From Leptolinea sp. HRD-7 (GTDB lineage Bacteria; Chloroflexota; Anaerolineae; Anaerolineales; Anaerolineaceae): a stretch of DNA of 64,000 bases. The stretch is from the NCBI GenBank assembly GCA_024363285.1, contig AP024710.1, forward strand, positions 3,442,001-3,506,000. Direction: 5' to 3'. Below are positions 6,601 to 39,144 of the stretch, in pieces. The notes beneath the pieces were generated by a model. It ran no database searches. It had not been told where the DNA came from and saw nothing but the letters and a program-made list of their open reading frames with translations. The translations under genes were made by a program, and so were the position numbers. The number at the start of each line of letters is the position of its first letter. Positions within the stretch are counted from its first letter, which is position 1.

Positions 6601-8496
6601 TCACGATTCTGCCAACACGATGACCTTATCATGTTCATTCAATTTGATCGTTCCATTTTTTGGAGGGTTGATATGAACCCCATACCCTTTATCTGCTTCA
6701 TGGGCGAATTCTTCCAAACGATATCCGATAGCTGTCTCTCCAATCCGGCTGGCCGCTTCGACAATGGAGGCGAATGTGGTTTCCTTACCAGAAAGGATAT
6801 ACCGTGTAGCCGGTTTCAGGTAAATTTCTGCGCCTTCAGGATCGAACATATCGGTGAACACATCGTTCAATCCTTTATTTTCTGAGACTTGCGCCATGAT
6901 CAGGCTGACCAGTTTGTCGCTGACAATAAAGTCGTCCGCGCGGGTGACTTCCGCCAGGTTCCGGTTGCGAACGTCCTGCATTTCGCTGACTATGGTGAAA
7001 TCTTTGCCCGATCTTTCAGACATGTTTCTGAGATGTAGCAGAGTCATCAATGTCTTTGAATCCGCCTGTTGAACAGTCACACGGTCTGAATCACTCAGGA
7101 CAACAATGTGGTCAAAAGTCGCCACATTCAGTTCTTCCAGAACAACCCGGGATGTGGTGTCACCATTAATCGTTTTTAGTGTCTGATTTTTCAGGCTCTT
7201 CTTCAGTTCGCGGATAGTTTTTTCGATGATTTCGTCTTCATTCACGATCAGTATTTCTGATTTTGGCGCCACGTAGTTATCGAGCTCACGCACCAGATTA
7301 AGACCCCGCCAGTTCCACCCCAGGATCAAAGTTCTTTCCGGTTTCATAACCATCTCCTGTGGATGGGCAAAATTACTCTCATCATAGGCAACGGGAGTTT
7401 CTGTCTGGAAGATTTTGTCATCATCTTCCGCGATGACGATCAATTGGTCGCCTTCATGCAGAATAGTATCCATGGGAGGATTCAGAATGGCAACTCCATC
7501 GTGGGGAACAATGCCCATAACGGTATTGGTTACAAACCGATTGAGGGATTCTTTATACGTTTTGCCTGCCAATGATCCGATGCCGGTAAAGTAAATCTCG
7601 TCACCCCCAAAATCCAGCAATTCGGTATACACAGTTGACAAACCGGACTGACGGCAGGTTTGCGCGATAATGCGAGCCACCAGCCCGCCGAGTTGGATCC
7701 ATTCTACTTCGCCTTTGCCCACAACTTCAGCGATCTCGTAATTTTTCGGGTCCCGCAGCTCAGCCACAATATGATATGGTTCCGCCCGGTGCTCAGGGTG
7801 ATTCAGAATAGCCACTACGGTTTTTATCACTTCCGCGTCTGGATTTTCGGTTTCAGGTGAAAGCACCAGTATGGATTTGCTCGTATTTAACGAGACAATG
7901 TTCAAGTCAGACATGTCGATGGGATTGCCCGATCGGCAAACAACTCGGGTTTTGCCGGTGCCGCCCACTTTTTCTCTGATCTCATCTTCCATTTCAACCT
8001 TGTCTTTATCGCCCATGATCACAATACAGGCATCCGGTTGATTTGAATTTGCTTCTACCAATTCGGAAATGATGGTGAAGACCTGTTCAGACCAGCCAAG
8101 AATCACAGTATGGTTCTTTTCAATCACTCGTGATCGACCTTTTCGCAGTTCGTCCATCTTTGATTCAATGCCGCTTGTAAGCACACCAATCAGCATGCTG
8201 ATCACAAACACACCCCCGATTGTCACAACAAACATCGCCAAACGGAACCCCCAGCCGGTATCACCTCCCATTGTTCCGGCATCCAAAGTACGCATCAAAC
8301 TTAACCAGAAAGCTTCAACAAAACTAACCTTTTCACCATCTCCCGGTGCAATCCCCAAAATGACAACAACTAAAGAAACAATCAAAATGATAACTACAGA
8401 AACAACGGCCAGACCGAGGATCAATGATCCGGTTCCCCTGGACATGAAATTGTCAAATTTGTAACGGAGTCGCTCTTTTAATGATGAGTCAGTCAT
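6601..8496 (-). CDS. CASTOR/POLLUX-like ion channel with RCK-type domains
   Basis: 631 residues. The start is ATG at 8496 because TGGAGGAA lies 7 nt upstream; a longer frame begins inside that Shine-Dalgarno sequence. A long hydrophobic helix (about residues 20-45), a pore-loop-like segment with RTLDAGTMGGDTG and a second helix form a two-helix pore. Two cytosolic Rossmann/TrkA-C-like units follow (one begins HTVILGWSEQ, the other RTLILGWNWRG). This architecture matches bacterial relatives of plant CASTOR/POLLUX channels, which gate K+ or Ca2+ flux. Ion selectivity cannot be predicted safely, since the loop lacks a TVGYG filter. It is monocistronic, with a terminator on each side. Confidence 0.88.
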   Translation of the reverse strand: MTDSSLKERLRYKFDNFMSRGTGSLILGLAVVSVVIILIVSLVVVILGIAPGDGEKVSFVEAFWLSLMRTLDAGTMGGDTGWGFRLAMFVVTIGGVFVISMLIGVLTSGIESKMDELRKGRSRVIEKNHTVILGWSEQVFTIISELVEANSNQPDACIVIMGDKDKVEMEDEIREKVGGTGKTRVVCRSGNPIDMSDLNIVSLNTSKSILVLSPETENPDAEVIKTVVAILNHPEHRAEPYHIVAELRDPKNYEIAEVVGKGEVEWIQLGGLVARIIAQTCRQSGLSTVYTELLDFGGDEIYFTGIGSLAGKTYKESLNRFVTNTVMGIVPHDGVAILNPPMDTILHEGDQLIVIAEDDDKIFQTETPVAYDESNFAHPQEMVMKPERTLILGWNWRGLNLVRELDNYVAPKSEILIVNEDEIIEKTIRELKKSLKNQTLKTINGDTTSRVVLEELNVATFDHIVVLSDSDRVTVQQADSKTLMTLLHLRNMSERSGKDFTIVSEMQDVRNRNLAEVTRADDFIVSDKLVSLIMAQVSENKGLNDVFTDMFDPEGAEIYLKPATRYILSGKETTFASIVEAASRIGETAIGYRLEEFAHEADKGYGVHINPPKNGTIKLNEHDKVIVLAES

Positions 8497-8577
8497 AACC
8501 GGTTCCTCCAATTTTGATTAAAAAAGGATTAATGATCAATCATGTTATTTTAATGATTTATGTGGTTTTAGGCACAG

Positions 8578-8620
8578 AAAAACTGCCGGAAATCCCAAAA
8601 GGAAAGTCCGGCAGTTTTTT
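8578..8620 (-). terminator. terminator closing the ubiquitin-like operon
   Basis: An inverted repeat of 13 bp (AAAAACTGCCGGA at 8578-8590, its complement at 8607-8619) gives a G+C-rich stem followed by T residues when read on the minus strand. It sits 12 nt past the stop of the VWA gene and is the natural 3' end of the seven-gene operon. Confidence 0.88.
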
Positions 8621-8631
8621 AAGTGTTCACA

Positions 8632-9768
8632 TTAGTCTTTAATTTTTATGGCAACTTTCTTCACTTCCTTCATCTTTATATTAGGACGAGGCTTGTGAAG
8701 CCTTTCGCGGACTATTGGAATTATCTGAGGTCCCACCGCCAGCGCACCGATAAAAACCAGCAGTCCAAAGAACATCGGCCACGAGCCAGCTACCGGCACT
8801 TCGGGGATCAATCCACCGGGGTTGTATGTCGCAGAAGCACCCTGCTGCATTGCTGCTCCGGGGTAGGATTCAAGTGCGACGGATAACGACCGGTTTAGAC
8901 CGTTGCGCAAGCCGTATGGCGACGTGTAGGTCAGAACATATTCACTACGCATCAACGCGCCAAAAGACGCGTACAGCGCGCTTAATTGCTCACGGTTCTC
9001 CGCGTAACCGTAAAGTCCACCGGTTTCTGATGCCAGTTTCTTCAGAACAGACTCGTCCAACGCCTCCTGTGAAGCCGCACCCTGACTGGCATCACCGAAT
9101 CCCACAGTGGAAATGGTCATGCCGCTGCGTCCTATGGATGAGATCACACCGTCCACCGAGGATTTGCTTCGGTTATCCAGCCCATCGGTATAAACCAGAA
9201 TGGCTTTACGGCCCGAAACATTGTTCAACTGGGTGACAGCTGAGATCAGGGCGTCATACATGGCGGTATCGCCGCCGGGAGAGATGGTATCAATTGCCTG
9301 GGCAAGCTGCGCGCGATCACCTTTGATCATCTGCAGTGTACGCACCTGAGTATTGAACAGGATAATACCGGCCTTATCGCCCTCGCGCATTTGCGAGACA
9401 TACTCTTTGGCAACCGCTTTAGCGGATTCAATTTTGCCCAATTTCTCCATGCTTCCAGAGATATCCATCACCAGCAGCGTGGTTAATGGGCCAACCTGCC
9501 CCGCTCCCTGGATATTACTGGCTGGCACCACTTTACCGCCTTCCCGTACAACCAGGTCACCCGGGTTGACAGCCACCGGCTCGCCCTTCGCGTTCACAAC
9601 CGACACATAGACGGTTACCTGCGGGAATTTTGAATCATCAACTTGAGTAATGCGGATGGTCAAATTTCCCACCTGTGGAGTCACAGAATGTACCGGGATG
9701 AAGGCAGTCAGCATGGCGACAAGAACAATCAACGTGATTGTGAGAGAAAGCCTTTTTTTTGTTTTCAT
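8632..9768 (-). CDS. membrane-anchored von Willebrand factor A domain protein
   Basis: 378 residues, last gene of the ubiquitin-like operon; starts 6 nt after the FHA gene with an AAGGTGAG ribosome site. An N-terminal signal or anchor (about 8-28) leads to a beta-rich segment. A VWA domain follows with a complete MIDAS: DISGS (D102, S104, S106), a Thr in GGDTAMYDA and the Asp of VYTDGLDN. A transmembrane helix near 335-358 is followed by a basic tail. The VWA domain therefore faces outside, with a short cytosolic tail. VWA proteins bind partners through a metal ion. The role in this operon is unknown; it may be a target or a surface-sensing component. Confidence 0.9.
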   Translation of the reverse strand: MKTKKRLSLTITLIVLVAMLTAFIPVHSVTPQVGNLTIRITQVDDSKFPQVTVYVSVVNAKGEPVAVNPGDLVVREGGKVVPASNIQGAGQVGPLTTLLVMDISGSMEKLGKIESAKAVAKEYVSQMREGDKAGIILFNTQVRTLQMIKGDRAQLAQAIDTISPGGDTAMYDALISAVTQLNNVSGRKAILVYTDGLDNRSKSSVDGVISSIGRSGMTISTVGFGDASQGAASQEALDESVLKKLASETGGLYGYAENREQLSALYASFGALMRSEYVLTYTSPYGLRNGLNRSLSVALESYPGAAMQQGASATYNPGGLIPEVPVAGSWPMFFGLLVFIGALAVGPQIIPIVRERLHKPRPNIKMKEVKKVAIKIKD

Positions 9769-9774
9769 CGCAGC

Positions 9775-10632
9775 TCACCTTTTCTCATGATAGACCAGTT
9801 CCGTGTTGCCCATACGGATGGTCTGCATATTGGAAAGACGAGCCTGTTCCACGCGTTTGTTATTGACAAACGTCCCGTTCATGCTCATGTCTTTCAGGTT
9901 GAAGTAGTCACCCCCGCCTTGCAGCATGGCATGCTGCGGCGCGATATCGGGGTCTGGCAGGGCAATATCGGCCTTGAGTGAACTGCTTCCGATGATCGCG
10001 GAAGGGCCGTTAGGTTGCAAGAATTTATCGAGGATGAATTCCGTGCCTTTTAATTTGCCTGACTTAACTTCAAACCAGGCTTTAGACAGCGTGAACACGA
10101 TCAGCGCGATGCAGCCGCCCACGGCCATGCCCATCAGGATCAAGCCAGCCGCCTTACCCAGCAGCGGATCTGAGAGCGCGCCTCGTGAGAATTCCAGCAG
10201 CAAGCCGCCGAGGATGCCGCCGGCAAAACCGCCGGCCGCTCCCTTCCAGATCTGCGCGCCGCCCTTGTAGGCGGCGGCGGTACCGGTTAAAAGACCAAAC
10301 AACCCCCACCCCAACGGCCTGGCCCAACTATACCCGCCGATCACCTGCAGAAAACCTTCCGCGATAGGCAGCCCAATCGCCCCGCCTAACGCGCCCAATC
10401 CACCGGTGATGGCGCCTGAAACCACAGCTTTTTCCCAGTTGCGGGCAGATATGCCTTCGACCGCTCCGATCATGAACCCGATCAGGAACCCGATGAAACC
10501 GCCCACCACCAGGGCATTAAAATACAGACTTTTCGTAAATGACATGCCTGTGAGATTGCTCAACTGCCATGCCAGCAAGCCCCCCAGCCCGCCAAGTACG
10601 GCATAGTAATAGATCTTCATTAACCGGCTCAT
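9775..10632 (-). CDS. polytopic membrane protein with C-terminal degenerate FHA domain
   Basis: 285 residues. The first two thirds are Gly/Ala-rich hydrophobic helices (six or so) resembling a glycine-zipper membrane module. The last 90 residues are FHA-like: IGSS, then DIAPQHAML, then MNGTFVNN. Classical FHA domains read phosphothreonine using GR and SxxH motifs. Here the Arg is Ser (IGSS) and the Ser before xxH is Pro (PQHA), while the NGT turn is kept, so phospho-peptide binding is doubtful. An AAGAGGCG ribosome site precedes the ATG. It lies 9 nt after the JAMM gene and 6 nt before the VWA gene, clearly in the same operon. Confidence 0.88.
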   Translation of the reverse strand: MSRLMKIYYYAVLGGLGGLLAWQLSNLTGMSFTKSLYFNALVVGGFIGFLIGFMIGAVEGISARNWEKAVVSGAITGGLGALGGAIGLPIAEGFLQVIGGYSWARPLGWGLFGLLTGTAAAYKGGAQIWKGAAGGFAGGILGGLLLEFSRGALSDPLLGKAAGLILMGMAVGGCIALIVFTLSKAWFEVKSGKLKGTEFILDKFLQPNGPSAIIGSSSLKADIALPDPDIAPQHAMLQGGGDYFNLKDMSMNGTFVNNKRVEQARLSNMQTIRMGNTELVYHEKR

Positions 10633-10641
10633 AATCGCCTC

Positions 10642-11328
10642 TTATTCTTCCTGTATGTTTTCAACGGGAACAAGGTTACGCCAGTGGACGATGGACCGTC
10701 GGCGGCGGTGATACAGTTCGTTGAACCCGAAATAACAGCGGGTATCCAGCTTGCCATTCACCTGCTTTTGAAAAAAACCGGCCGCGGCGCTATACGGTTC
10801 GATGACCAGCCCAACCTGCCATGGCTCCGGAAAAAAGTTTTCATGAAGCCAACGATCCCATTCTGAGAAAAAGACACCCATTTTGGGGTGGGTATGAAAC
10901 CACCCCAGCAGACGCAGATCAGGATAGTCGTCCGTCAATGTGGCATGCATCCTGACCTGGCTGTCTTGTGTGAATGTCAGAAACGCGCTTCCATGTTCCG
11001 TGAATTCTGCCGGCAGCACCGTATTGATCACGATAAAAGGTTTTCCGGTTTGATTATCCAGATAGGCCTTTCCTGCCAGCCAGCCGCCCACTTCATTGTG
11101 CAGATCGGAACCGGCATGGGCACAGATGCGGATGAAAGCCTGTTGTGTCAAAAAAACCTGAACCGCGGGTTTAATGAGTTCATCCATTTCTACCGGTTTC
11201 CATTGCAATGCGCGGTAGTAAGGCGCGCGGTGATGCCTGAATTTCATATCATCGTGTGTACCGATCCGAATGCGTGACGTGCGATCCACGGAAACCTCGT
11301 TGAAAAATTGCCAGGCGGTTCTGACCAC
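10642..11328 (-). CDS. JAMM/MPN+ metallopeptidase, predicted deubiquitinase-like enzyme
   Basis: 228 residues from GTG at 11328; an ATG at 11247 (201 residues) is an alternative, and neither has a strong ribosome site. The full JAMM zinc motif is present: E79 (HNEVGGW), then H145-T-H147, S155 and D158 in the canonical HxH-x7-S-x2-D spacing. JAMM enzymes (Rpn11, AMSH, bacterial JAB) hydrolyse the bond after a Ubl C-terminal glycine or trim Ubl precursors. In this operon the likely jobs are removing the Ubl from targets or cutting the Ubl-E2 fusion after its Gly88. There is no secretion signal, so it should act in the cytosol. Confidence 0.93.
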   Translation of the reverse strand: MVRTAWQFFNEVSVDRTSRIRIGTHDDMKFRHHRAPYYRALQWKPVEMDELIKPAVQVFLTQQAFIRICAHAGSDLHNEVGGWLAGKAYLDNQTGKPFIVINTVLPAEFTEHGSAFLTFTQDSQVRMHATLTDDYPDLRLLGWFHTHPKMGVFFSEWDRWLHENFFPEPWQVGLVIEPYSAAAGFFQKQVNGKLDTRCYFGFNELYHRRRRSIVHWRNLVPVENIQEE

Positions 11329-11353
11329 CAGAGTACCGCCTGGCCTTTGGATA

Positions 11354-11620
11354 CTACCCCGCGGTGATATCCGCGGTGACCATCAGGCGGTCATCGGCGG
11401 GTACGCCGGCTGCAGCAAGTGTCTCAGCTTCCTGCAACTCGCGTCCCAGTGCTTTACTGTCCAACCGGTAGCTGATCGGACGGCCGTCCGGACCGGTTGT
11501 CGGGAGTTGAAGTGATGTCGCCAGTTCCGGGATCAAGTCGGAAACGGCCACATCATCCGGCACTTCCGCAGTGCGGCTGCCACCCGAAGGGAGAATAAAT
11601 GTTACGCTTTTATCAGACAT
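11354..11620 (-). CDS. free ubiquitin-like protein (YukD/EsaB-like) ending in glycine
   Basis: 88 residues. The ATG at 11620 follows a GGAGGTAACC ribosome site; a longer frame starts inside that site. The sequence has the beta-grasp pattern of YukD/EsaB Ubls (FILPSGG..., VPDDVAVSDLI, LGREL, DDRLMVTADI). It ends ITAG, so the C-terminal glycine is already exposed and no processing is needed for E1 activation; there is one Gly rather than the Gly-Gly of ubiquitin. It aligns without gaps to residues 1-88 of the neighbouring Ubl-E2 fusion, with 61 of 88 identical by hand count. Predicted role: the modifier conjugated by this operon's E1/E2/RING. Confidence 0.9.
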   Translation of the reverse strand: MSDKSVTFILPSGGSRTAEVPDDVAVSDLIPELATSLQLPTTGPDGRPISYRLDSKALGRELQEAETLAAAGVPADDRLMVTADITAG

Positions 11621-11675
11621 GGTTACCTCCATTTGGTTCAGTGAGTTCCTTAAACAAGGTGCACCTTGATGTAAG

Positions 11676-12521
11676 TTATTTAAGTTTGACCCGTGGTCTG
11701 GGGGCCGGTTCCACCGTTTTGATCTTCACGCGCTCCGGGCGCAGCAGTTCACGTTTGTCCAGCGGGAAGCAGCCCGGATGCACGGCGCGGTAGGAACGGC
11801 ACCATTTTGCCGCTTCCGCGTCCCATGGGAACGGCGGTTTGGTGGGGTCATCGTGGAAATTCTTGTACTGCAGCATTTCACCGAGCATGATCACCAGCCG
11901 GTCCAACGAGCGGCTGGCCGCCCACCACGCGGCGTCAATACACACGCTGCCGTTCAAATGATTGATGTTCGGGTGCCAGATGGGAGTCAACCAGCTCATA
12001 CCGGGCCAGCGCTGCGGGTACTGCGCGTGCAGATAGATCTCTACCTGGTGATGTTCTCCGATCTTCGGATTGCCTTTGCCATCAATACCGACGATGGATT
12101 TGCACTTGAAGGTGACAATGTAACGCTCCGGCGGCATACCCGGAACGGCAGACCTGGTCTGCACCGAGATCAGGTCACTGCGGGCCACCAATTCCTGGAT
12201 CAGGTCATAGTCAGCACGCAGACGGCGCATGCGCGGGCTCTGGTCCAGTGAGCCAGCCCCGGCAGTGATATCCGCCGTCAACACCAACCGGTCGCCATCC
12301 GGTACGCCGGCATCGGCGAGGGTTTCTTTTTCCAACAATTCACGTCCCAGGGCTTTGCTGTCCAGCCGGTATCCCATGGGGCGGCCATCCGGCCCGATGG
12401 TGGGCAGTTGTAACAATGACGTCAACTCGGTCAAAATATCGCCAATGGCAACATCATCCGGAATATCCGCCCGGCGGGCTCCGCCATTCGGCAGCACAAT
12501 GGTGATGGAACGATCAGACAT
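11676..12521 (-). CDS. ubiquitin-like domain fused to E2 ubiquitin-conjugating enzyme
   Basis: 281 residues, ATG preceded by CGGAGGA. Residues 1-88 are a Ubl nearly matching the free Ubl downstream. After TADITAG the chain continues through a short linker into a UBC fold (about 97-255). The E2 core is very eukaryote-like: WHPNIN (H183, P184, N185) then GSVCID with the catalytic Cys at 194, nine residues after the HPN Asn, and the following helix pair with a PPFPWD segment. E2 enzymes accept a Ubl thioester from E1 and pass it to a lysine with RING help. The built-in Ubl could bind the E2 backside, or be released by the JAMM enzyme at Gly88. Confidence 0.95.
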   Translation of the reverse strand: MSDRSITIVLPNGGARRADIPDDVAIGDILTELTSLLQLPTIGPDGRPMGYRLDSKALGRELLEKETLADAGVPDGDRLVLTADITAGAGSLDQSPRMRRLRADYDLIQELVARSDLISVQTRSAVPGMPPERYIVTFKCKSIVGIDGKGNPKIGEHHQVEIYLHAQYPQRWPGMSWLTPIWHPNINHLNGSVCIDAAWWAASRSLDRLVIMLGEMLQYKNFHDDPTKPPFPWDAEAAKWCRSYRAVHPGCFPLDKRELLRPERVKIKTVEPAPRPRVKLK

Positions 12522-12542
12522 ACAAATCCTCCGGTAACAGGG

Positions 12543-13583
12543 TTAGAGCATGGCGTGGTTGTGGGGTACCTGGCATGAGCCGGTGATATCCCAGCATTCT
12601 TTATGATGCGCTGTGTGACAGATGGGGCATACAACCATAGACTTTTTATCACGCCCTGTGATCTCTTGCAGGCAATACGGGCAGCGCATCTCTTCTTTTC
12701 CCGTCAACCGCACGGAATGGGGCATTTTGCGCCCTCCGTGTTTGCGCGGCAGTTTGACCGGCAGCGCGGCGGGTGGAACCGTACGGTGATCAGGCTCCGA
12801 AATGTGCAGGCGGGCTTCCGCTTTGCGCTGACCGGTGATCACCACACGGCTCCCGGGGTGCAGCCAAAGCTGCACAGGTTTGACAATGGAATGCCGGAAG
12901 AATTTACCCAGAGCCTTCCACTGATTATTCACCTTACGTTTCCACCGGCGCCACGCGCTCTGGCGGAAATAGCGTTTGCGCATGTCATCCGGGATGATCG
13001 AAAAGGAGCGTGACCGGTTTTGTGATACAGGTTTTCTCTCTGCTGAATGACGCACGGATGGTACCTCCGTGTATTCCATGGTGTTGACCGGTTCCGAATA
13101 AACGTCGCGCGGCTCAACTTCAATGATTTCCGCCTTCGGCTTACGGCTCCAGGCGAATACCGAAACGAGTGACGTGGCTATGCCCATCCCGGTGAGGATG
13201 AAGAAATCGGGCTGTACCAGCGCGGTATGAAATTCCGTAAGATCAACCTCCAGCCAGTATTTTCCTGCCAGTCCGGCGACGGCCAGCACCAGGGGCACGG
13301 TCACTGCGGCCAGCAGCCAGCGGATAACGTAGTGCGCGCCGACAAACATGAAACGCGCCAGCACACCCGCGGATAGGCCGCAGAAGACCGCCAGAACCGT
13401 GGGGATCAGATCCACCCAGGTAAACCGGGTGAACAGAAGAAAATACACCAGAATGCCGCAGAAATCCGCCGTCAGGAAGATCAATATGAAAAGGCGGACG
13501 AGAAAGCTGTTCACCGCTTTCATGAACGGGCGTGTTCCGGAACGGGTGAGCCCCGCCGATGGGAGTTCCATACCACTTTCCAT
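12543..13583 (-). CDS. membrane protein with C-terminal prokaryotic RING-like zinc finger (candidate E3)
   Basis: 346 residues, ATG one base after the E1 stop, with GGAAAGAG upstream; an ATG at 13571 is a possible alternative. About four transmembrane helices occupy residues 25-165, followed by a long basic cytosolic region. A C-terminal zinc finger has ligands C301, C304, C319, C322, H326/H327, C330, C337 and H341 (CPYC, VVCPIC, HHKECW). The CxxC...CxxC-x3-HHxxCW pattern is that of the bacterial Prok-RING treble-clef families found in ubiquitin-like operons. Together with E1 and E2 it is best read as an E3 that holds conjugation at the membrane. Ligase activity is inferred, not shown. Confidence 0.87.
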   Translation of the reverse strand: MESGMELPSAGLTRSGTRPFMKAVNSFLVRLFILIFLTADFCGILVYFLLFTRFTWVDLIPTVLAVFCGLSAGVLARFMFVGAHYVIRWLLAAVTVPLVLAVAGLAGKYWLEVDLTEFHTALVQPDFFILTGMGIATSLVSVFAWSRKPKAEIIEVEPRDVYSEPVNTMEYTEVPSVRHSAERKPVSQNRSRSFSIIPDDMRKRYFRQSAWRRWKRKVNNQWKALGKFFRHSIVKPVQLWLHPGSRVVITGQRKAEARLHISEPDHRTVPPAALPVKLPRKHGGRKMPHSVRLTGKEEMRCPYCLQEITGRDKKSMVVCPICHTAHHKECWDITGSCQVPHNHAML

Positions 13584-13584
13584 G

Positions 13585-15243
13585 TCACTCTTTCCACAGG
13601 GTCACCCGACCATGTGCCGGATTAGAAGGCGGTTCGTCGGCTGCCGAAACGGCGTGCAGTCGGATGGACTGGCGCAGCGCGGTGGCCATCAACCGGTTAT
13701 CCTGTTTTTCAAAATGCCGGAAGTGCAGCGTGTTGCCCAGGTCGCCGGTTAATTCGTAAAATCTGTATTCTGCCGCGTTGAACGCGCGGACGACATGCAG
13801 CGGCGGAATTCCGGCCGCCGCCAGTGACATACGGGCGAATGGTTCTTTGCCGGTAATGGTATGGGTCATTTCGATCTCACGCAGAATACCGCAGGCCGGG
13901 CAGTGCGCCGCCTTGAACCCTACCTGTGACATGGGCTTCAGTATCTCTTCATGGGTGCCGCACTGCGGGCATGTGAGCGAAAGGATCAGTTCCTGATCCA
14001 GCTCAATGACCGTATCCGGCCCGAGGTCGGACTGAGCGATGCGCGCCAGGTCAGCCAGCGTGGTGGTGCCGGCGGAAATCGGCAGTTCGCTGATCTCACC
14101 GTAGCTCCAATGGCTTTCGCAGTCTTCGCGCGCTGTGTAGGCGGAAGTGTGCATCTCATTGGTCAGCCCGTTGAAATGGGTGACCTTACCCGCCTGCACC
14201 GGCATGCCGTGGATCAACTTCAGGGCTTCCTGCGCCTGCATCGCCCCGATGATCGACGCGATGGTCGGCGTGGTGGGCACCTTGCCCAACAGCACATTTT
14301 CGCGGGCCAGAAGGGGGCAGGAGTAACGCACGGCCAGATCGCGGCGCGCCTGTTCGGTGAGGCTGCATTCAAAGCAGGCTCCCTGCCCGGGGATGAATAC
14401 CCTGACCAGACCGTAAAGCTCCTGGATGGCGCCATCAACCCAGGGTTTGCCCACCCAGTAGGCAAAGCGGTTGACAGCCAGCCGGGCTTCACGGTTATCA
14501 AGGCAGCCGATGATCACATCCATGCGGCGGAATATACCCAGTCCCACCTGGTTGGAAATATCGCCGTGCAGGTACTGCACTTTGACATTCGGGTTGAGTT
14601 CTTTGACACGGGCGGCGGCCACTTCCGCTTTGTCGCGGGACGAGTCACTCTCACGGAAAAGCACGGAGCGGCTCAGGTTGGCCATTTCCACCGTATCAAA
14701 ATCGACGATCAGGATGTGCCCTACGCCCATCAGGGCCAGATTTTTGACGACTTCGTTGCCCAGCGCACCCGCGCCCACCACCATCACATGGGCGTTTTCC
14801 ACCTTTTCGCGTTCCCACCATGAGATCAACTGGAAGGTGCCGGAACGGTCGGTTTTCAGGTTCGGGATCTGCAGCGGCTTCTCGGGGGTCACCGGCAGGC
14901 GGCGGGGACCGGTGGGCGGTTCCTGCCCGGCCGGCCTTGCCTGCGCGGGCGCTTCCGCCCTGGCCCAGGAAGCCAGTTCGCGGGCGCGGGCCGCGTTGCC
15001 GGCGGTGATAGCGCACACGAACCAGCCCACGCTGACGCGTGATTCGATCAGGCGGCTGTCCAGCAGGATCTTGAGGGCTTCCCGCAGGGTTGACCGGCTG
15101 ACGCCGAATTCCTTGACCAGGTCGCGTTCCGTGGCGAGTTGCGTGCCGGGGGCATAGATGCCGTCAAGTATGCTGGCGGCTAACTTGCCGGCGATGATCT
15201 CGGCAAGGGATTTACGGGTGATGGGGGCGTTTGGTATGTTCAT
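13585..15243 (-). CDS. GntR-type winged helix fused to E1-like ubiquitin-activating enzyme
   Basis: 552 residues in one frame. Residues 8-78 are a GntR/FadR-type DNA-binding domain (PGTQLATERDL, EFGVSRSTLREAL, SVGWFV). After a Pro/Ala-rich linker (95-130) comes an E1/ThiF/MoeB adenylation domain: VGAGALG (156-162), the DFD acid at the end of the next strand, NLSR, K205, and CLDN (247-250). Zinc ligands are C290, C293 and probably C375 with H378; a second ribbon is C425, C428, C448 and C451. Cys309 (RYSC) is a candidate catalytic thiol; the crossover-loop site used in eukaryotic UBA3 has no Cys here. First gene of the operon, so the HTH may autoregulate it. Confidence 0.93.
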   Translation of the reverse strand: MNIPNAPITRKSLAEIIAGKLAASILDGIYAPGTQLATERDLVKEFGVSRSTLREALKILLDSRLIESRVSVGWFVCAITAGNAARARELASWARAEAPAQARPAGQEPPTGPRRLPVTPEKPLQIPNLKTDRSGTFQLISWWEREKVENAHVMVVGAGALGNEVVKNLALMGVGHILIVDFDTVEMANLSRSVLFRESDSSRDKAEVAAARVKELNPNVKVQYLHGDISNQVGLGIFRRMDVIIGCLDNREARLAVNRFAYWVGKPWVDGAIQELYGLVRVFIPGQGACFECSLTEQARRDLAVRYSCPLLARENVLLGKVPTTPTIASIIGAMQAQEALKLIHGMPVQAGKVTHFNGLTNEMHTSAYTAREDCESHWSYGEISELPISAGTTTLADLARIAQSDLGPDTVIELDQELILSLTCPQCGTHEEILKPMSQVGFKAAHCPACGILREIEMTHTITGKEPFARMSLAAAGIPPLHVVRAFNAAEYRFYELTGDLGNTLHFRHFEKQDNRLMATALRQSIRLHAVSAADEPPSNPAHGRVTLWKE

Positions 15244-15282
15244 GGTGTTTTGGTCTGACCTTCATACCAAGATTTTAGACCA
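15231..15282 (-). promoter_or_regulatory. nested palindromes over the E1 start: candidate GntR operator
   Basis: Three nested symmetric motifs cover the promoter and start codon. TGGTCT (15251-15256) and AGACCA (15277-15282) form one inverted repeat; TTGGTATG (15231-15238) and CATACCAA (15263-15270) form another. At the centre, GGTCTGACC (15252-15260) is an odd palindrome, and TGGTCTGACCT differs at one specified position from the TNGTNNNACNA consensus of FadR-subfamily operators. The first gene encodes a GntR-type HTH, so negative autoregulation by the E1 fusion protein is the simplest reading. Inference only. Confidence 0.55.
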
Positions 15283-15299
15283 CATCACCACAATGTCAA
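15272..15299 (-). promoter_or_regulatory. sigma70-type promoter of the ubiquitin-like operon
   Basis: On the minus strand a perfect TTGACA (15299-15294) is followed, after 16 nt, by TAAAAT (15277-15272). The expected transcription start is near 15265, leaving a leader of about 20 nt before the ATG at 15243. The leader lacks a strong ribosome-binding site, which may keep E1 expression low. Confidence 0.7.
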
Positions 15300-15558: not shown

Positions 15559-16926
15559 TCAACGGCTTTGGGCGTGGATCAGCCCCTTATACCACCGGCC
15601 GCTTTCCTTGACCGTGCGTTTCTGCGTGGCGTAATCCACATACACAATGCCAAACCGTTTGCTGTACCCGGCCGCCCACTCGAAATTATCCATAAGCGAC
15701 CAGACGAAATAGCCGCGCAGATCGCAGCCTTCTTCCAGCGCCTGATGCGCCTTGCGGATATAGCTGTCAAGGAACTGCACCCGCAGCGGGTCGTTGACCG
15801 TCCCGTCTTCCAGCGGACGGTCGTCAAAGGCCGCGCCGTTCTCGGTGATATACACCGGCGGGTTGTTGTATTCATCCTTGAGCAGGCGCAGGCACTCGTA
15901 GATGCCCTGCGGGTAGACCTCCCAGCCCATGCTGGTGTGCTGCACGCCGTCACGCACAAATTCGGTATCGGCGATGTCCGACCCGCTGATGTCCATCTGC
16001 AAGAACGGTACGTACCACCTGAAGGTGGCGAACTCGCGCTGGTAGTTGTTGATCCCCAGGAAGTCAATGGGCTGCGAGATGAGGCTCATGTCACCCTCTT
16101 TGACAGCCGGGTGCAGCAGGCGGGTGCGTCCCCATAGAGGTTCGGGGTAACTGCCCTTGTAGATCGGGCTGAGGGTGATGTGATTCAGGAACTGGTTAGC
16201 CAGCATGGCGGCCTGGCGGTCTTTGTCCGTATCGGTCTGCGGGTGGATAGGTGTCAGGCTGACCACGATGCCCATCTTGCATTGCGGGGCAACGGCGCGG
16301 ATGCGCTCCACCGCCATGCCGTGCCCCAGCAGCAGGTGATGCATCACCCGGAAATAGGCGGGTAGGCTGGTTTTGCCCGGCGCGTGCTGCCCGAGGAAAT
16401 GCCCGAGGGCGGCAAACTCGAACGGCTCATTCAACGTCGTCCAGTTGACGACGCGGTCGCCCAGGGCACGCACCACTGTCTCCGTGTAATCGGCGAACAG
16501 GCTGCTCACGGCGCGGTTCTCAAACCCGTTGTATCGGGTCTGCAGCGCCTGCGGCAGGTCCCAGTGGAACAGCGTGGGGAACGGGGTGATATCGTTCTTC
16601 AGCAGCAGGTCAGTCAGCCGGCTGTAAAAATCAAGACCTTTCTGGTTGACCTGCCCTTCCCCATCCGGGTAAATCCGCGGCCAGGCGATGGAGAACCGGT
16701 AGGCCTTCAAGCCAAGGGATTTCATAAGCGCCACATCTTCGGCCATTCGGTTGTAGTGGTCACAGGCTATGTCACCGTTATCGCTGTTACGGATCTTGCC
16801 TTTGGTGTGGCTGAAGGTATCCCAGACCGACGGGCCCCGGCCGTCAACATTCACGGCCCCTTCAATCTGATAAGCGGAAGAAGCGGCGCCGAACACAAAA
16901 CCGGGCGGGAATTTCGGGTACTCCAT
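15559..16926 (-). CDS. glycoside hydrolase family 1 beta-glucosidase
   Basis: 455 residues from ATG at 16926, chosen because GGAGGTTTGAC directly precedes it and the GH1 N-terminus (FPPGFVFGAASSAYQIEG) begins here; an upstream in-frame extension is not needed. Both GH1 catalytic glutamates are present: acid/base E167 in TLNEP and nucleophile E362 in YITENG. Full-length (alpha/beta)8 barrel with no signal peptide, so it hydrolyses beta-linked disaccharides or glucosides in the cytosol. It is divergently transcribed from an MFS sugar permease across a 126-bp region that carries a palindrome, suggesting co-regulated uptake and hydrolysis. The exact glycoside is unknown. Confidence 0.95.
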   Translation of the reverse strand: MEYPKFPPGFVFGAASSAYQIEGAVNVDGRGPSVWDTFSHTKGKIRNSDNGDIACDHYNRMAEDVALMKSLGLKAYRFSIAWPRIYPDGEGQVNQKGLDFYSRLTDLLLKNDITPFPTLFHWDLPQALQTRYNGFENRAVSSLFADYTETVVRALGDRVVNWTTLNEPFEFAALGHFLGQHAPGKTSLPAYFRVMHHLLLGHGMAVERIRAVAPQCKMGIVVSLTPIHPQTDTDKDRQAAMLANQFLNHITLSPIYKGSYPEPLWGRTRLLHPAVKEGDMSLISQPIDFLGINNYQREFATFRWYVPFLQMDISGSDIADTEFVRDGVQHTSMGWEVYPQGIYECLRLLKDEYNNPPVYITENGAAFDDRPLEDGTVNDPLRVQFLDSYIRKAHQALEEGCDLRGYFVWSLMDNFEWAAGYSKRFGIVYVDYATQKRTVKESGRWYKGLIHAQSR

Positions 16927-16950
16927 GTCAAACCTCCGGAAATTTGATAT

Positions 16951-16966
16951 AGTAATAAGCGTTACT
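16951..16966. promoter_or_regulatory. palindrome between divergent sugar genes, candidate operator
   Basis: AGTAATAAGCGTTACT has symmetric arms AGTAA/TTACT around a centre containing CG when read on either strand, as in LacI-family operators. It is the only clear palindrome between the GH1 and MFS starts. No LacI-type gene lies in the window, so the regulator would be elsewhere. Confidence 0.4.
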
Positions 16967-17052
16967 TTATGGTTTGATTTTATACCAAACCCCTCCCGCA
17001 CCACTAAATTTTTTCTTACAATCCAGATTATTTTTACTCAGGAAGGTTCCCC

Positions 17053-37844: not shown

Positions 37845-37927
37845 CCGAAAAAATCATCCCATCTCTTTTCCGGTTTTCCTTGGTATGAATGGCTTTTCCC
37901 AGGTTTCCCCAAAACCCGGTAGTTCAT

Positions 37928-37933
37928 TATAAT
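37928..37933 (+). promoter_or_regulatory. -10 element set for a leaderless FhaA-like transcript
   Basis: A perfect TATAAT ends exactly six bases before GTG at 37940, so transcription would begin at or next to the start codon. No Shine-Dalgarno sequence is present. The -35 region is weak. Confidence 0.4.
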
Positions 37934-37939
37934 AATCTC

Positions 37940-38722
37940 GTGAAAATTAATTTTGATTCCATTGAAGCCCGGCTGAAATCACTGGTTGAATCCAGCTCGA
38001 ATATTATTTCCCGGAAAAATGTTGAAGATCCAAAGACAACTCAGCTGGTCTCAGCCTTTCAATCTTACCTGGAAAAGAAGTCAATCTCAGGTGAGACGCT
38101 CATACCTGAAGTCTTGATATGTAAAGTACCGGAATTATCATTGCGTGACTGGCACAACTATCCATTCAGTCAGACGTTTGCCTCTATCATGAAAGATTCT
38201 GGACTGTCGACAGCAGCGATTCCTCGGATTGTTCTCACAGGCAGCCCGGATTTGCTGCAAGGTGAGATTCTGGTGTATGACGCAGAACCTGACGCCCTCC
38301 CATTAGATAAAACAGCTTCCATGCCGATTATGGTCACCGTTGATCAACCACTTCCTGGTGATAGTATTCCGGCAAATGCTTTTGTGATTATTAATGGGTT
38401 GGAAACATATCCATTAAATCAACCGGTGATCAACATTGGCCGGCGGCTTGAGAATGACCTGGTAATAGAAGATCCCCGGATTTCACGAGAACATGCCCAG
38501 ATCCGGGCAGTCAAAGGACAGTATGTGATTTTCGATCTGAATTCAACCGGAGGGACATTCGTAAACTCTGTCCGGGTGACGCGGCAGCCGCTTTTCCCCG
38601 GCGACGTCATCTCCCTGGCTGGAGTTCCTCTCGTATACGGGCAGGATTCCCCTCTGGCAAATACTCAAACCGGACCGGTAGAACCATTCTTTACCCCACC
38701 GCCGGAGAAGGGCAAATTGTGA
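37940..38722 (+). CDS. FhaA-like protein: DUF3662 plus FHA domain
   Basis: 260 residues from GTG at 37940, chosen because the FhaA-type N-terminus (FDSIEARLKSLVESS) starts here; an ATG at 37889 is possible. Residues 1-110 resemble the DUF3662 domain of actinobacterial FhaA. The C-terminal FHA domain (about 165-245) keeps all phosphothreonine motifs: IGRRLEND, ISREHAQI and STGGTFVN. FhaA regulates cell-wall synthesis in actinobacteria by binding phosphorylated MviN and PbpA. It overlaps the next FHA gene by 4 nt. Confidence 0.87.
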   Translation: MKINFDSIEARLKSLVESSSNIISRKNVEDPKTTQLVSAFQSYLEKKSISGETLIPEVLICKVPELSLRDWHNYPFSQTFASIMKDSGLSTAAIPRIVLTGSPDLLQGEILVYDAEPDALPLDKTASMPIMVTVDQPLPGDSIPANAFVIINGLETYPLNQPVINIGRRLENDLVIEDPRISREHAQIRAVKGQYVIFDLNSTGGTFVNSVRVTRQPLFPGDVISLAGVPLVYGQDSPLANTQTGPVEPFFTPPPEKGKL

Positions 38723-39144
38723 GCGGAATAGTCGTACTGGTTGTTCGCACGATCGTTGCATTGATGCTATACGCGTTCCTGGGAACCGCCCTGTATGTTC
38801 TCTGGCAAGACTTGCAAATGCATGTTGAAATGGTTAAAGCCGCTCAGGTTCCCATTCTGACAATTTCATCCATCATCGGCGATTCCAATCCGATGGAATT
38901 CAACGTTCCAGAGGTGATCATAGGCCGAGACCCGCTGAACAATTGCCCGATAGCCGATGAAACCGTTTCTTCACGTCATGCGAAATTAAGCTATCACCAT
39001 AACCAGTGGTGGTTAGAAGATATGAATTCCACCAACGGCACATTCCTTAATGATGAACGTGTGTATACTCCCACCGTAGTCATTACCGGTGACGAAGTTC
39101 GCTGCGGCCAGGTTGTTCTAAAAATATTGATCGCGGCTAAATAG
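38719..39144 (+). CDS. FhaB-like membrane protein with FHA domain
   Basis: 141 residues from GTG (GTGA overlap with the upstream gene). A single N-terminal transmembrane helix (about 3-26) is followed by an intact FHA domain with IGRDPLNN, VSSRHAKLSY and DMNSTNGTFLNDERV. Same layout as actinobacterial FhaB/FipA, a cell-division factor. Its last 8 nt overlap the convergent methyltransferase gene. A Ser/Thr kinase to phosphorylate its ligands is not encoded in the window. Confidence 0.9.
   Translation: MSGIVVLVVRTIVALMLYAFLGTALYVLWQDLQMHVEMVKAAQVPILTISSIIGDSNPMEFNVPEVIIGRDPLNNCPIADETVSSRHAKLSYHHNQWWLEDMNSTNGTFLNDERVYTPTVVITGDEVRCGQVVLKILIAAK

Follow-up and report, generated by a model that had tools for sequence, protein, structure and literature searches.

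What would a bacterium use a complete ubiquitin-like conjugation pathway for, when all of its parts are encoded in one operon? The question is raised by seven genes of Leptolinea sp. HRD-7 (Anaerolineaceae, class Anaerolineae, phylum Chloroflexota), which lie in a 64,000-nucleotide stretch of contig AP024710.1 (positions 3,442,001 to 3,506,000). We call this whole stretch the window and number all its positions from its first letter. We propose, with a probability of about 0.75, that the operon is a housekeeping cassette which Anaerolineae inherit vertically, and which would reversibly conjugate a YukD-type ubiquitin-like protein (Ubl) to lysines of cytoplasmic-membrane targets and would control its own expression.

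Seven genes share one promoter and one terminator

According to the original prediction, which was made from the letters of the window, the operon comprises seven genes with one promoter and one terminator. All seven open reading frames (ORFs) were found at the predicted place, on the minus strand of this 64-kb part of a 3.79 Mb genome, and domain searches bore out their assignments. The domain matches were GntR (1.1e-15) and ThiF (1.5e-59) in the activating enzyme (E1), Prok-RING_1 (1.5e-9) in the membrane RING protein, YukD (6.7e-12) and UQ_con (1.7e-10) in a fusion of a Ubl with the conjugating enzyme (E2), YukD (8e-10) in the free Ubl, JAB (3.3e-10) in the JAMM peptidase, FHA (1.3e-12) and VWA_2 (2.3e-14). 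Along the cassette, the genes are separated by 1, 21, 43, 25, 9 and 6 nt in order. The strong promoter before E1 is the best-scoring one in the region, and a hairpin with a T-run follows the VWA gene. We identified this terminator by direct reading; its loop exceeded the limit of the automated scanner. The features are as follows.

15272..15299, minus strand: predicted promoter, −35 TTGACA (15299-15294), 16-nt spacer, −10 TAAAAT (15277-15272), 11 of 12 consensus matches
about 15270-15244, minus strand: outer half-sites GGTAT/ACACC flanking the operator
15251..15261, minus strand: putative operator AGGTCAGACCA between the −10 box and the E1 start, family consensus TGGTCWGACCA
13585..15243, minus strand: E1, with a GntR winged helix-turn-helix (HTH, residues 14-76), one adenylation domain, candidate Cys309, two zinc sites, a ubiquitin-fold domain (UFD, about 410-501) and an RVTL tail
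12543..13583, minus strand: candidate RING ligase (E3), with 3-5 N-terminal transmembrane helices, a variable linker and a C-terminal C4HC2H Prok-RING_1 finger (12561-12683)
11676..12521, minus strand: YukD-E2 fusion, with YukD (1-88) ending in DITAG at 12258, a flexible linker, E2 with H183-P184-N185 and C194, and an RVKLK C-terminus
11354..11632, minus strand: free YukD-type Ubl with a DITAG end, Gly being the final residue
10642..11328, minus strand: JAMM peptidase, with E79, H145, H147, S155 and D158; start ambiguous (GTG 11328 or ATG 11247)
9775..10632, minus strand: membrane protein with a C-terminal FHA-like domain, GR arginine absent
8632..9768, minus strand: VWA protein, with an N-terminal signal or transmembrane segment, intact MIDAS, a C-terminal transmembrane segment and a predicted cytosolic basic tail with KVAIKIK
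about 8578..8620, minus strand: predicted intrinsic terminator, hairpin and T-run 3' of the VWA gene, AAAAACTGCCGGA ... TCCGGCAGTTTTT

The cassette is conserved as one unit and inherited in place

Scattered homologues would have weakened the pathway claim of the original prediction, but the homologues proved strictly syntenic. When about 85,000 species genomes were searched with a single protein query, which reaches close relatives only, 60 loci were found, all in Chloroflexota according to their titles. With loci from whole genomes added and two divergent ones set apart, 69 non-redundant loci were compared, and 57 held all seven genes in identical order and strand. This excludes chance: the cassette is one unit. 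Of the 12 incomplete loci, nearly all are cut short by a contig edge or stop close to one, and L085 has no recognised Ubl ORF. Three loci (L118, L119 and L121) have a second, tandem JAMM gene in the cassette.

The E2 was present in 67 of 301 Anaerolineales genomes (22%) and in 42 of the 174 good-quality ones, and 16 of 400 genomes sampled across Chloroflexota gave a match. Cultured carriers are Leptolinea tardivitalis, whose strain YMTK-2 has an E2 91% identical to that of the window, and Pelolinea submarina.

We then considered where the cassette resides. The rpl, tRNA-Arg and tRNA-Met insertion contexts each form one clade on the E1 tree; therefore, the cassette has been inherited in place, vertically. 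The flanks comprised 148 proteins; the commonest were LexA, ribosomal L10/L1, NusG and transporters, and matches to defence proteins were few. A search with one protein as the query found no carriage by phages, plasmids or IMG/VR sequences. With ribosomal, tRNA and lexA genes at its flanks and vertical locations, the cassette is not a mobile defence island.

These observations bear on whether the operon might serve anti-phage defence, tagging phage or host proteins upon infection as Bil, Bub or type II CBASS would. Defence is indeed the role of most bacterial operons that have been characterised with a Ubl, E1, E2 and JAB (PMC12687455), Bub is described as putative immune (PMC13373217), the distribution of the cassette is patchy, and its E1 partially matches the E1-E2 models of PADLOC. 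Nevertheless, we regard a defence role as distinctly unlikely, given the clade-bound locations, the flanks and the absence of phage or plasmid matches just described; in addition, the cassette lacks a nuclease, CD-NTase or killer effector, and its predicted regulator is E1 itself, not CapW, CapH/P or CapK/S.

Two neighbours in the window, a CASTOR/POLLUX-like ion channel gene downstream of the cassette (6601-8511; a neighbour in just one other Leptolinea genome) and a GH1 gene (15559-17004), were ruled out as cassette parts, since they stand beside few or no other cassettes. In about 8-11 genomes, most of which belong to the ribosomal-linked clade, the cassette is followed immediately downstream by a convergent lexA-type gene (e.g. 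L127:11427-12278).

Catalytic residues of the pathway are invariant

The GxGxxG motif, D183, N189, R192, C309 and eight zinc ligands of E1 (C290, C293, C375 and H378; C425, C428, C448 and C451) were kept in 60 of 60 sequences. Cys309, invariant and superfluous to both zinc sites, is the candidate catalytic cysteine. The predicted E1 model aligned with MoeB across the adenylation domain and, up to the end of the UFD, with SAE2, UBA1, UBA6 and UBA7; SUMO, NEDD8 and ubiquitin E1s were matched, and residues 140-501 aligned with 9dqb_B over 300 residues (Z 27.6, root-mean-square deviation 3.7). These relatives are among the matches listed by the aligner, and other bacterial E1 families may be related as well. 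As there is one adenylation domain, a homodimer would be expected.

The E2 carries the predicted HPN motif and Cys194, which were kept in 68/68 sequences, and its closest structure is UBE2K. The interfaces expected of the two enzymes would be in place, as the predicted E1 can be aligned through the E2-recruiting UFD and the E2 matches canonical E2s. JAMM catalytic residues were kept in 65/65, with Caldiarchaeum Rpn11 as the closest solved structure. The tested RING ligands were kept in 66/66, while the remainder of this protein, with 3-5 membrane segments predicted by simple hydropathy, has diverged to about 23% identity. Other Prok-RING_1 loci of Chloroflexota were considered as pathway members and rejected, most of them being without any other component. 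One such family (f71), of which a single genome may hold as many as three Prok-RING_1 proteins, is placed away from E1, E2 and JAMM (G283, G326, G373, G252 and G229) and appears to be a RING-like family with another job.

The glycine end foreseen for the Ubl was also confirmed. The free Ubl ends precisely at the Gly of D[IV]TAG in 58 of 61 sequences, and one further sequence has a single extra Ala. The fused YukD keeps TAG in 67/68, directly followed by a linker that is variable in length and sequence and modelled at low confidence. A single branch of the tree separates the fused from the free YukD copies, which one old duplication would explain, although this branch lacks support (88 columns). 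Caldiarchaeum Rpn11 (CsRpn11) cleaves pro-ubiquitin after Gly-Gly (PMC6043591). The kept TAG may mean that JAMM likewise releases the fused YukD after it, or that the YukD tail is threaded into E1.

Because the catalytic residues are invariant, a working conjugation and deconjugation pathway is very likely, judging from sequence. Alternatively, the YukD proteins might stay unconjugated and serve as structural components in a complex for secretion or in the membrane. YukD of the Bacillus type VII secretion system (T7SS) is reported not to be covalently conjugated (PMC1779556), and family membership together with FHA and membrane partners is reminiscent of the T7SS. We consider this highly improbable, since the YukD proteins are always accompanied by E1, E2 and JAMM, whose active sites are invariant, the Ubl stops at a conserved Gly, and no WXG100 gene was found in the genome (an FtsK-like ATPase was not searched for).

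E1 is predicted to repress its own operon

The fusion of an HTH to E1, noted from the start, was confirmed, and a conserved operator in the operon's own promoter now adds a likely role. PdhR, FadR-type and NanR structures are the closest to the HTH, whose residues R40, R50 and R54 are invariant or almost so. Upstream of E1, directly after the −10 box, lies a palindrome of consensus tGGTATA-n-TGGTCTGACCA-n-CATACCA. The form TGGTNNNACCA was present in 44 of 57 upstream regions, compared with 0.25 in shuffles, and 41 of the 44 had TGGTC-N-GACCA; a looser form was present in 50, where the operator overlaps the start of transcription, and most of the remaining seven had near versions. Across 1.06 Mb of loci there were 42 strict TGGTCNGACCA sites, and 41 upstream regions hold one; nearly all are therefore at the cassette promoter. 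No such operator was found at the E1 promoters of L072 and L073, where E1 is without the HTH.

Boxes described for PdhR/FadR-like regulators are AATTGGTnnnACCAATT (PMC7660256) and TKGT-N3-ACMA (PMC4494728). Both features of a FadR-type autoregulator are present in the cassette, namely an HTH of this family and, at its own promoter, a site of the TKGT-N3-ACMA type to which binding is predicted. Taking into account this kinship, the conserved operator, the conserved HTH arginines and the lack of a site where the HTH is absent, repression of the operon by E1 through its HTH is well predicted. That loading of E1 with Ubl or E2 relieves the repression is our guess.

A wider regulon in the genome was sought and rejected: there were 10 operator matches compared with 39 in the reversed control, and four sites that we inspected were not convincing. 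One operator-like site near the genome's second JAB gene is intragenic and inside a PRTRC-like island; this JAB gene (L222, G000:C1:2698000-2712000) is apparently part of a PRTRC-like plasmid or integrative element. Among the publications listed by our literature search, none joined GntR and an E1-like protein.

Membrane partners and shared C-terminal tails

Simple hydropathy predicts 2-4 membrane segments in the FHA protein, and an N-terminal signal or anchor plus a C-terminal segment in the VWA protein. The membrane FHA partner of the original prediction is present, but it is probably not a phospho-reader. Phosphothreonine reading by the FHA-like domain is unlikely, because Ser replaces the GR arginine in 63/63 sequences; the Ser of SxxH is mostly Ala, Asp or Glu. 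As a control for this degenerate domain, two overlapping FHA genes elsewhere in the window (37889-39144) retain GR and SRxHA. The MIDAS of the VWA protein was kept in 57/57.

E1, E2 and VWA end in similar tails, of the GRVKLHD, KPRIRLK and KPRIKLK type, respectively, with the common pattern R[VI]x[LIF]K. The strict motif was found in 55/68 E2, 33/61 VWA and 18/66 E1 tails, compared with shuffled-tail expectations of about 0.9, 0.6 and 0.2. Of the 554 flanking ORFs, a single one had it. If the C-terminal segment of VWA spans the membrane, its tail would be cytosolic. Since three unrelated proteins of a single operon carry the same tail, we suggest that they dock on a common partner, for which the FHA-like domain, YukD and RING are candidates. 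Other tail-bearing clients were sought in the genome and rejected: there were 14 pattern matches compared with 10 in the control, and E2 alone had the pattern at the end of a long ORF.

The tails could instead be acceptor sites, in which case E1, E2 and VWA would themselves be the main targets of the pathway, and the modification would act as a self-limiting switch. The E2 of Caldiarchaeum modifies itself at a C-terminal lysine (PMC5654768), and lysines adjoin the motif in nearly all E2 and most VWA tails. However, many E1 tails have the motif but no lysine (RVHLID, RVVLHE); therefore, the hydrophobic-basic core, not the lysine, is the conserved feature. As the genome search also yielded no further long ORF that ends in the tail, acceptor sites are rather unlikely.

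Returning to docking, we lean slightly towards a combined proposal, in which E1 also represses its own pathway and is relieved when engaged with Ubl or E2, while the tail code brings E1 and E2 together with a surface VWA receptor in a single complex at the membrane. If so, the cell would read conjugation demand straight from the E1 enzyme.

Proposed mechanism and function

For the housekeeping cassette proposed at the outset, E1 would adenylate the terminal Gly of Ubl and load Ubl onto Cys309, and its UFD would pass Ubl to Cys194 of E2. The membrane-anchored RING would carry E2~Ubl to membrane targets, and JAMM would strip Ubl off again and may free a second Ubl from the YukD-E2 precursor. The FadR-like HTH of E1 would bind TGGTCWGACCA over the start site, presumably more weakly while E1 is occupied with Ubl and E2, so that flux would set supply. 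VWA and the FHA-like protein would be membrane sensors or scaffolds, and the tails of E1, E2 and VWA would dock on one partner. The genes and their synteny, the residues, the predicted folds, the operator and the tails come from computation; conjugation, repression, docking, cleavage of the precursor and a role at the envelope are inferred from them.

Neither a 20S proteasome nor HslV was found in the genome; the tag would therefore serve more probably for signalling or localisation than as a proteasomal degron, and in the absence of WXG100 as well, neither proteasomal degradation nor a T7SS accounts for the cassette. The clade-bound locations, housekeeping flanks and lack of phage or plasmid carriage in the tests made argue for stable physiology, most likely of the envelope, over phage defence.

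Several points weigh against this interpretation. The cassette is found in 22% of the order and is hence dispensable; the membrane topologies come from hydropathy; the RING pattern is C4HC2H, and RING-like fingers are not always E3s; in two loci (L118 and L123), no operator can be recognised although the HTH is present.

To our knowledge, biochemically proven bacterial ubiquitin-like pathways are mostly immune systems without RING. The cassette would be a full E1-E2-RING-JAMM pathway resembling stable cell physiology, with a built-in regulatory readout in the E1 operator, and would show the use of a full conjugation cascade without a proteasome. It also bears on a question that dates from comparative work of 2006 and 2011, namely whether there are true modifiers among the YukD proteins.

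Comparison with known systems

Within Chloroflexota, a second architecture from another family of the class (L072:5994-11058 and L073:8048-13207) shares with the cassette E1 (1e-202), a Ubl ending in VTAG, E2, JAMM and RING. It differs in its order, E1-Ubl-E2-JAMM-JAMM-RING, with one JAMM bearing a membrane segment, and in lacking the HTH, fused YukD, FHA, VWA and promoter operator. This set is preceded on the same strand by CAP-domain, unknown and dynamin-like genes. Two remoter E1/E2 or Ubl/E2/JAMM sets also exist in Chloroflexota (L202:142-2687 and L200:1425-3440; short contigs, G274 and G326).

The Caldiarchaeum subterraneum operon likewise has ubiquitin, E1, E2, RING and an Rpn11-like JAMM, and in their folds the JAMM and YukD of the cassette match CsRpn11 and CsUb. 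Unlike the cassette, it encodes a true ubiquitin that has GG and whose tail is cleaved; its RING protein is small, its E1 is without an HTH, its E2 is not fused to a Ubl, and FHA and VWA are absent. The cassette Ubl, of the YukD family and ending in TAG, falls outside archaeal and eukaryotic ubiquitin, defined by a ubiquitin-family modifier and a GG end.

Bil (BilABCD) and Bub also unite Ubl, E1, E2 and JAB within a single operon. Bil has a double-Ubl BilA, a BilD with inactive and active adenylation domains, and a CEHH site in BilB (PMC11354881). None of these is present in the cassette, which has an HPN...C E2 and a single adenylation domain; Bil and Bub also lack a RING and are regulated differently. 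Bub often has CapW, CapH/P or CapK/S in its vicinity; none of these regulators was found in the cassette, and no Bub-labelled chain among the best 60 PDB sequence matches of E1. Type II CBASS shares E1 and JAB chemistry, but its Cap2, in which E1 and E2 are fused, acts on a CD-NTase, whereas the cassette has separate E1 and E2 and no CD-NTase.

The cassette also resembles the bacterial YukD/E1/E2/RING/JAB operons that Burroughs, Iyer and Aravind reportedly predicted in 2011 (Mol BioSyst), proposing YukD conjugation and a UFD. The gene order, with its fusions and its membrane FHA and VWA partners, had seemed unfamiliar in the original prediction; the general kind was in fact predicted in 2011, and the cassette is a variant of it. 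In that kind, the enzyme set, the YukD-type modifier, the Prok-RING_1 finger and the E1 with a UFD are the same, and all occur together in the cassette, with the E2 active site intact throughout. Complete E1/E2/RING operons are on record in some bacteria (PMC5654768; PMC4197634, citing Burroughs 2011), with Actinobacteria, Planctomycetes and Acidobacteria listed as carriers (PMC4197634). The cassette, as described here from sequence, would be set apart by a GntR fused to E1 and the operator that goes with it, by a second fusion of YukD to E2, by partners of the FHA and VWA types and by the tails that three of its proteins share. As far as the literature shows, this is apparently the first description of the operator and the tails, of the TAG end in both YukD copies, of the arginine loss in FHA and of a cassette with seven genes in invariant form.

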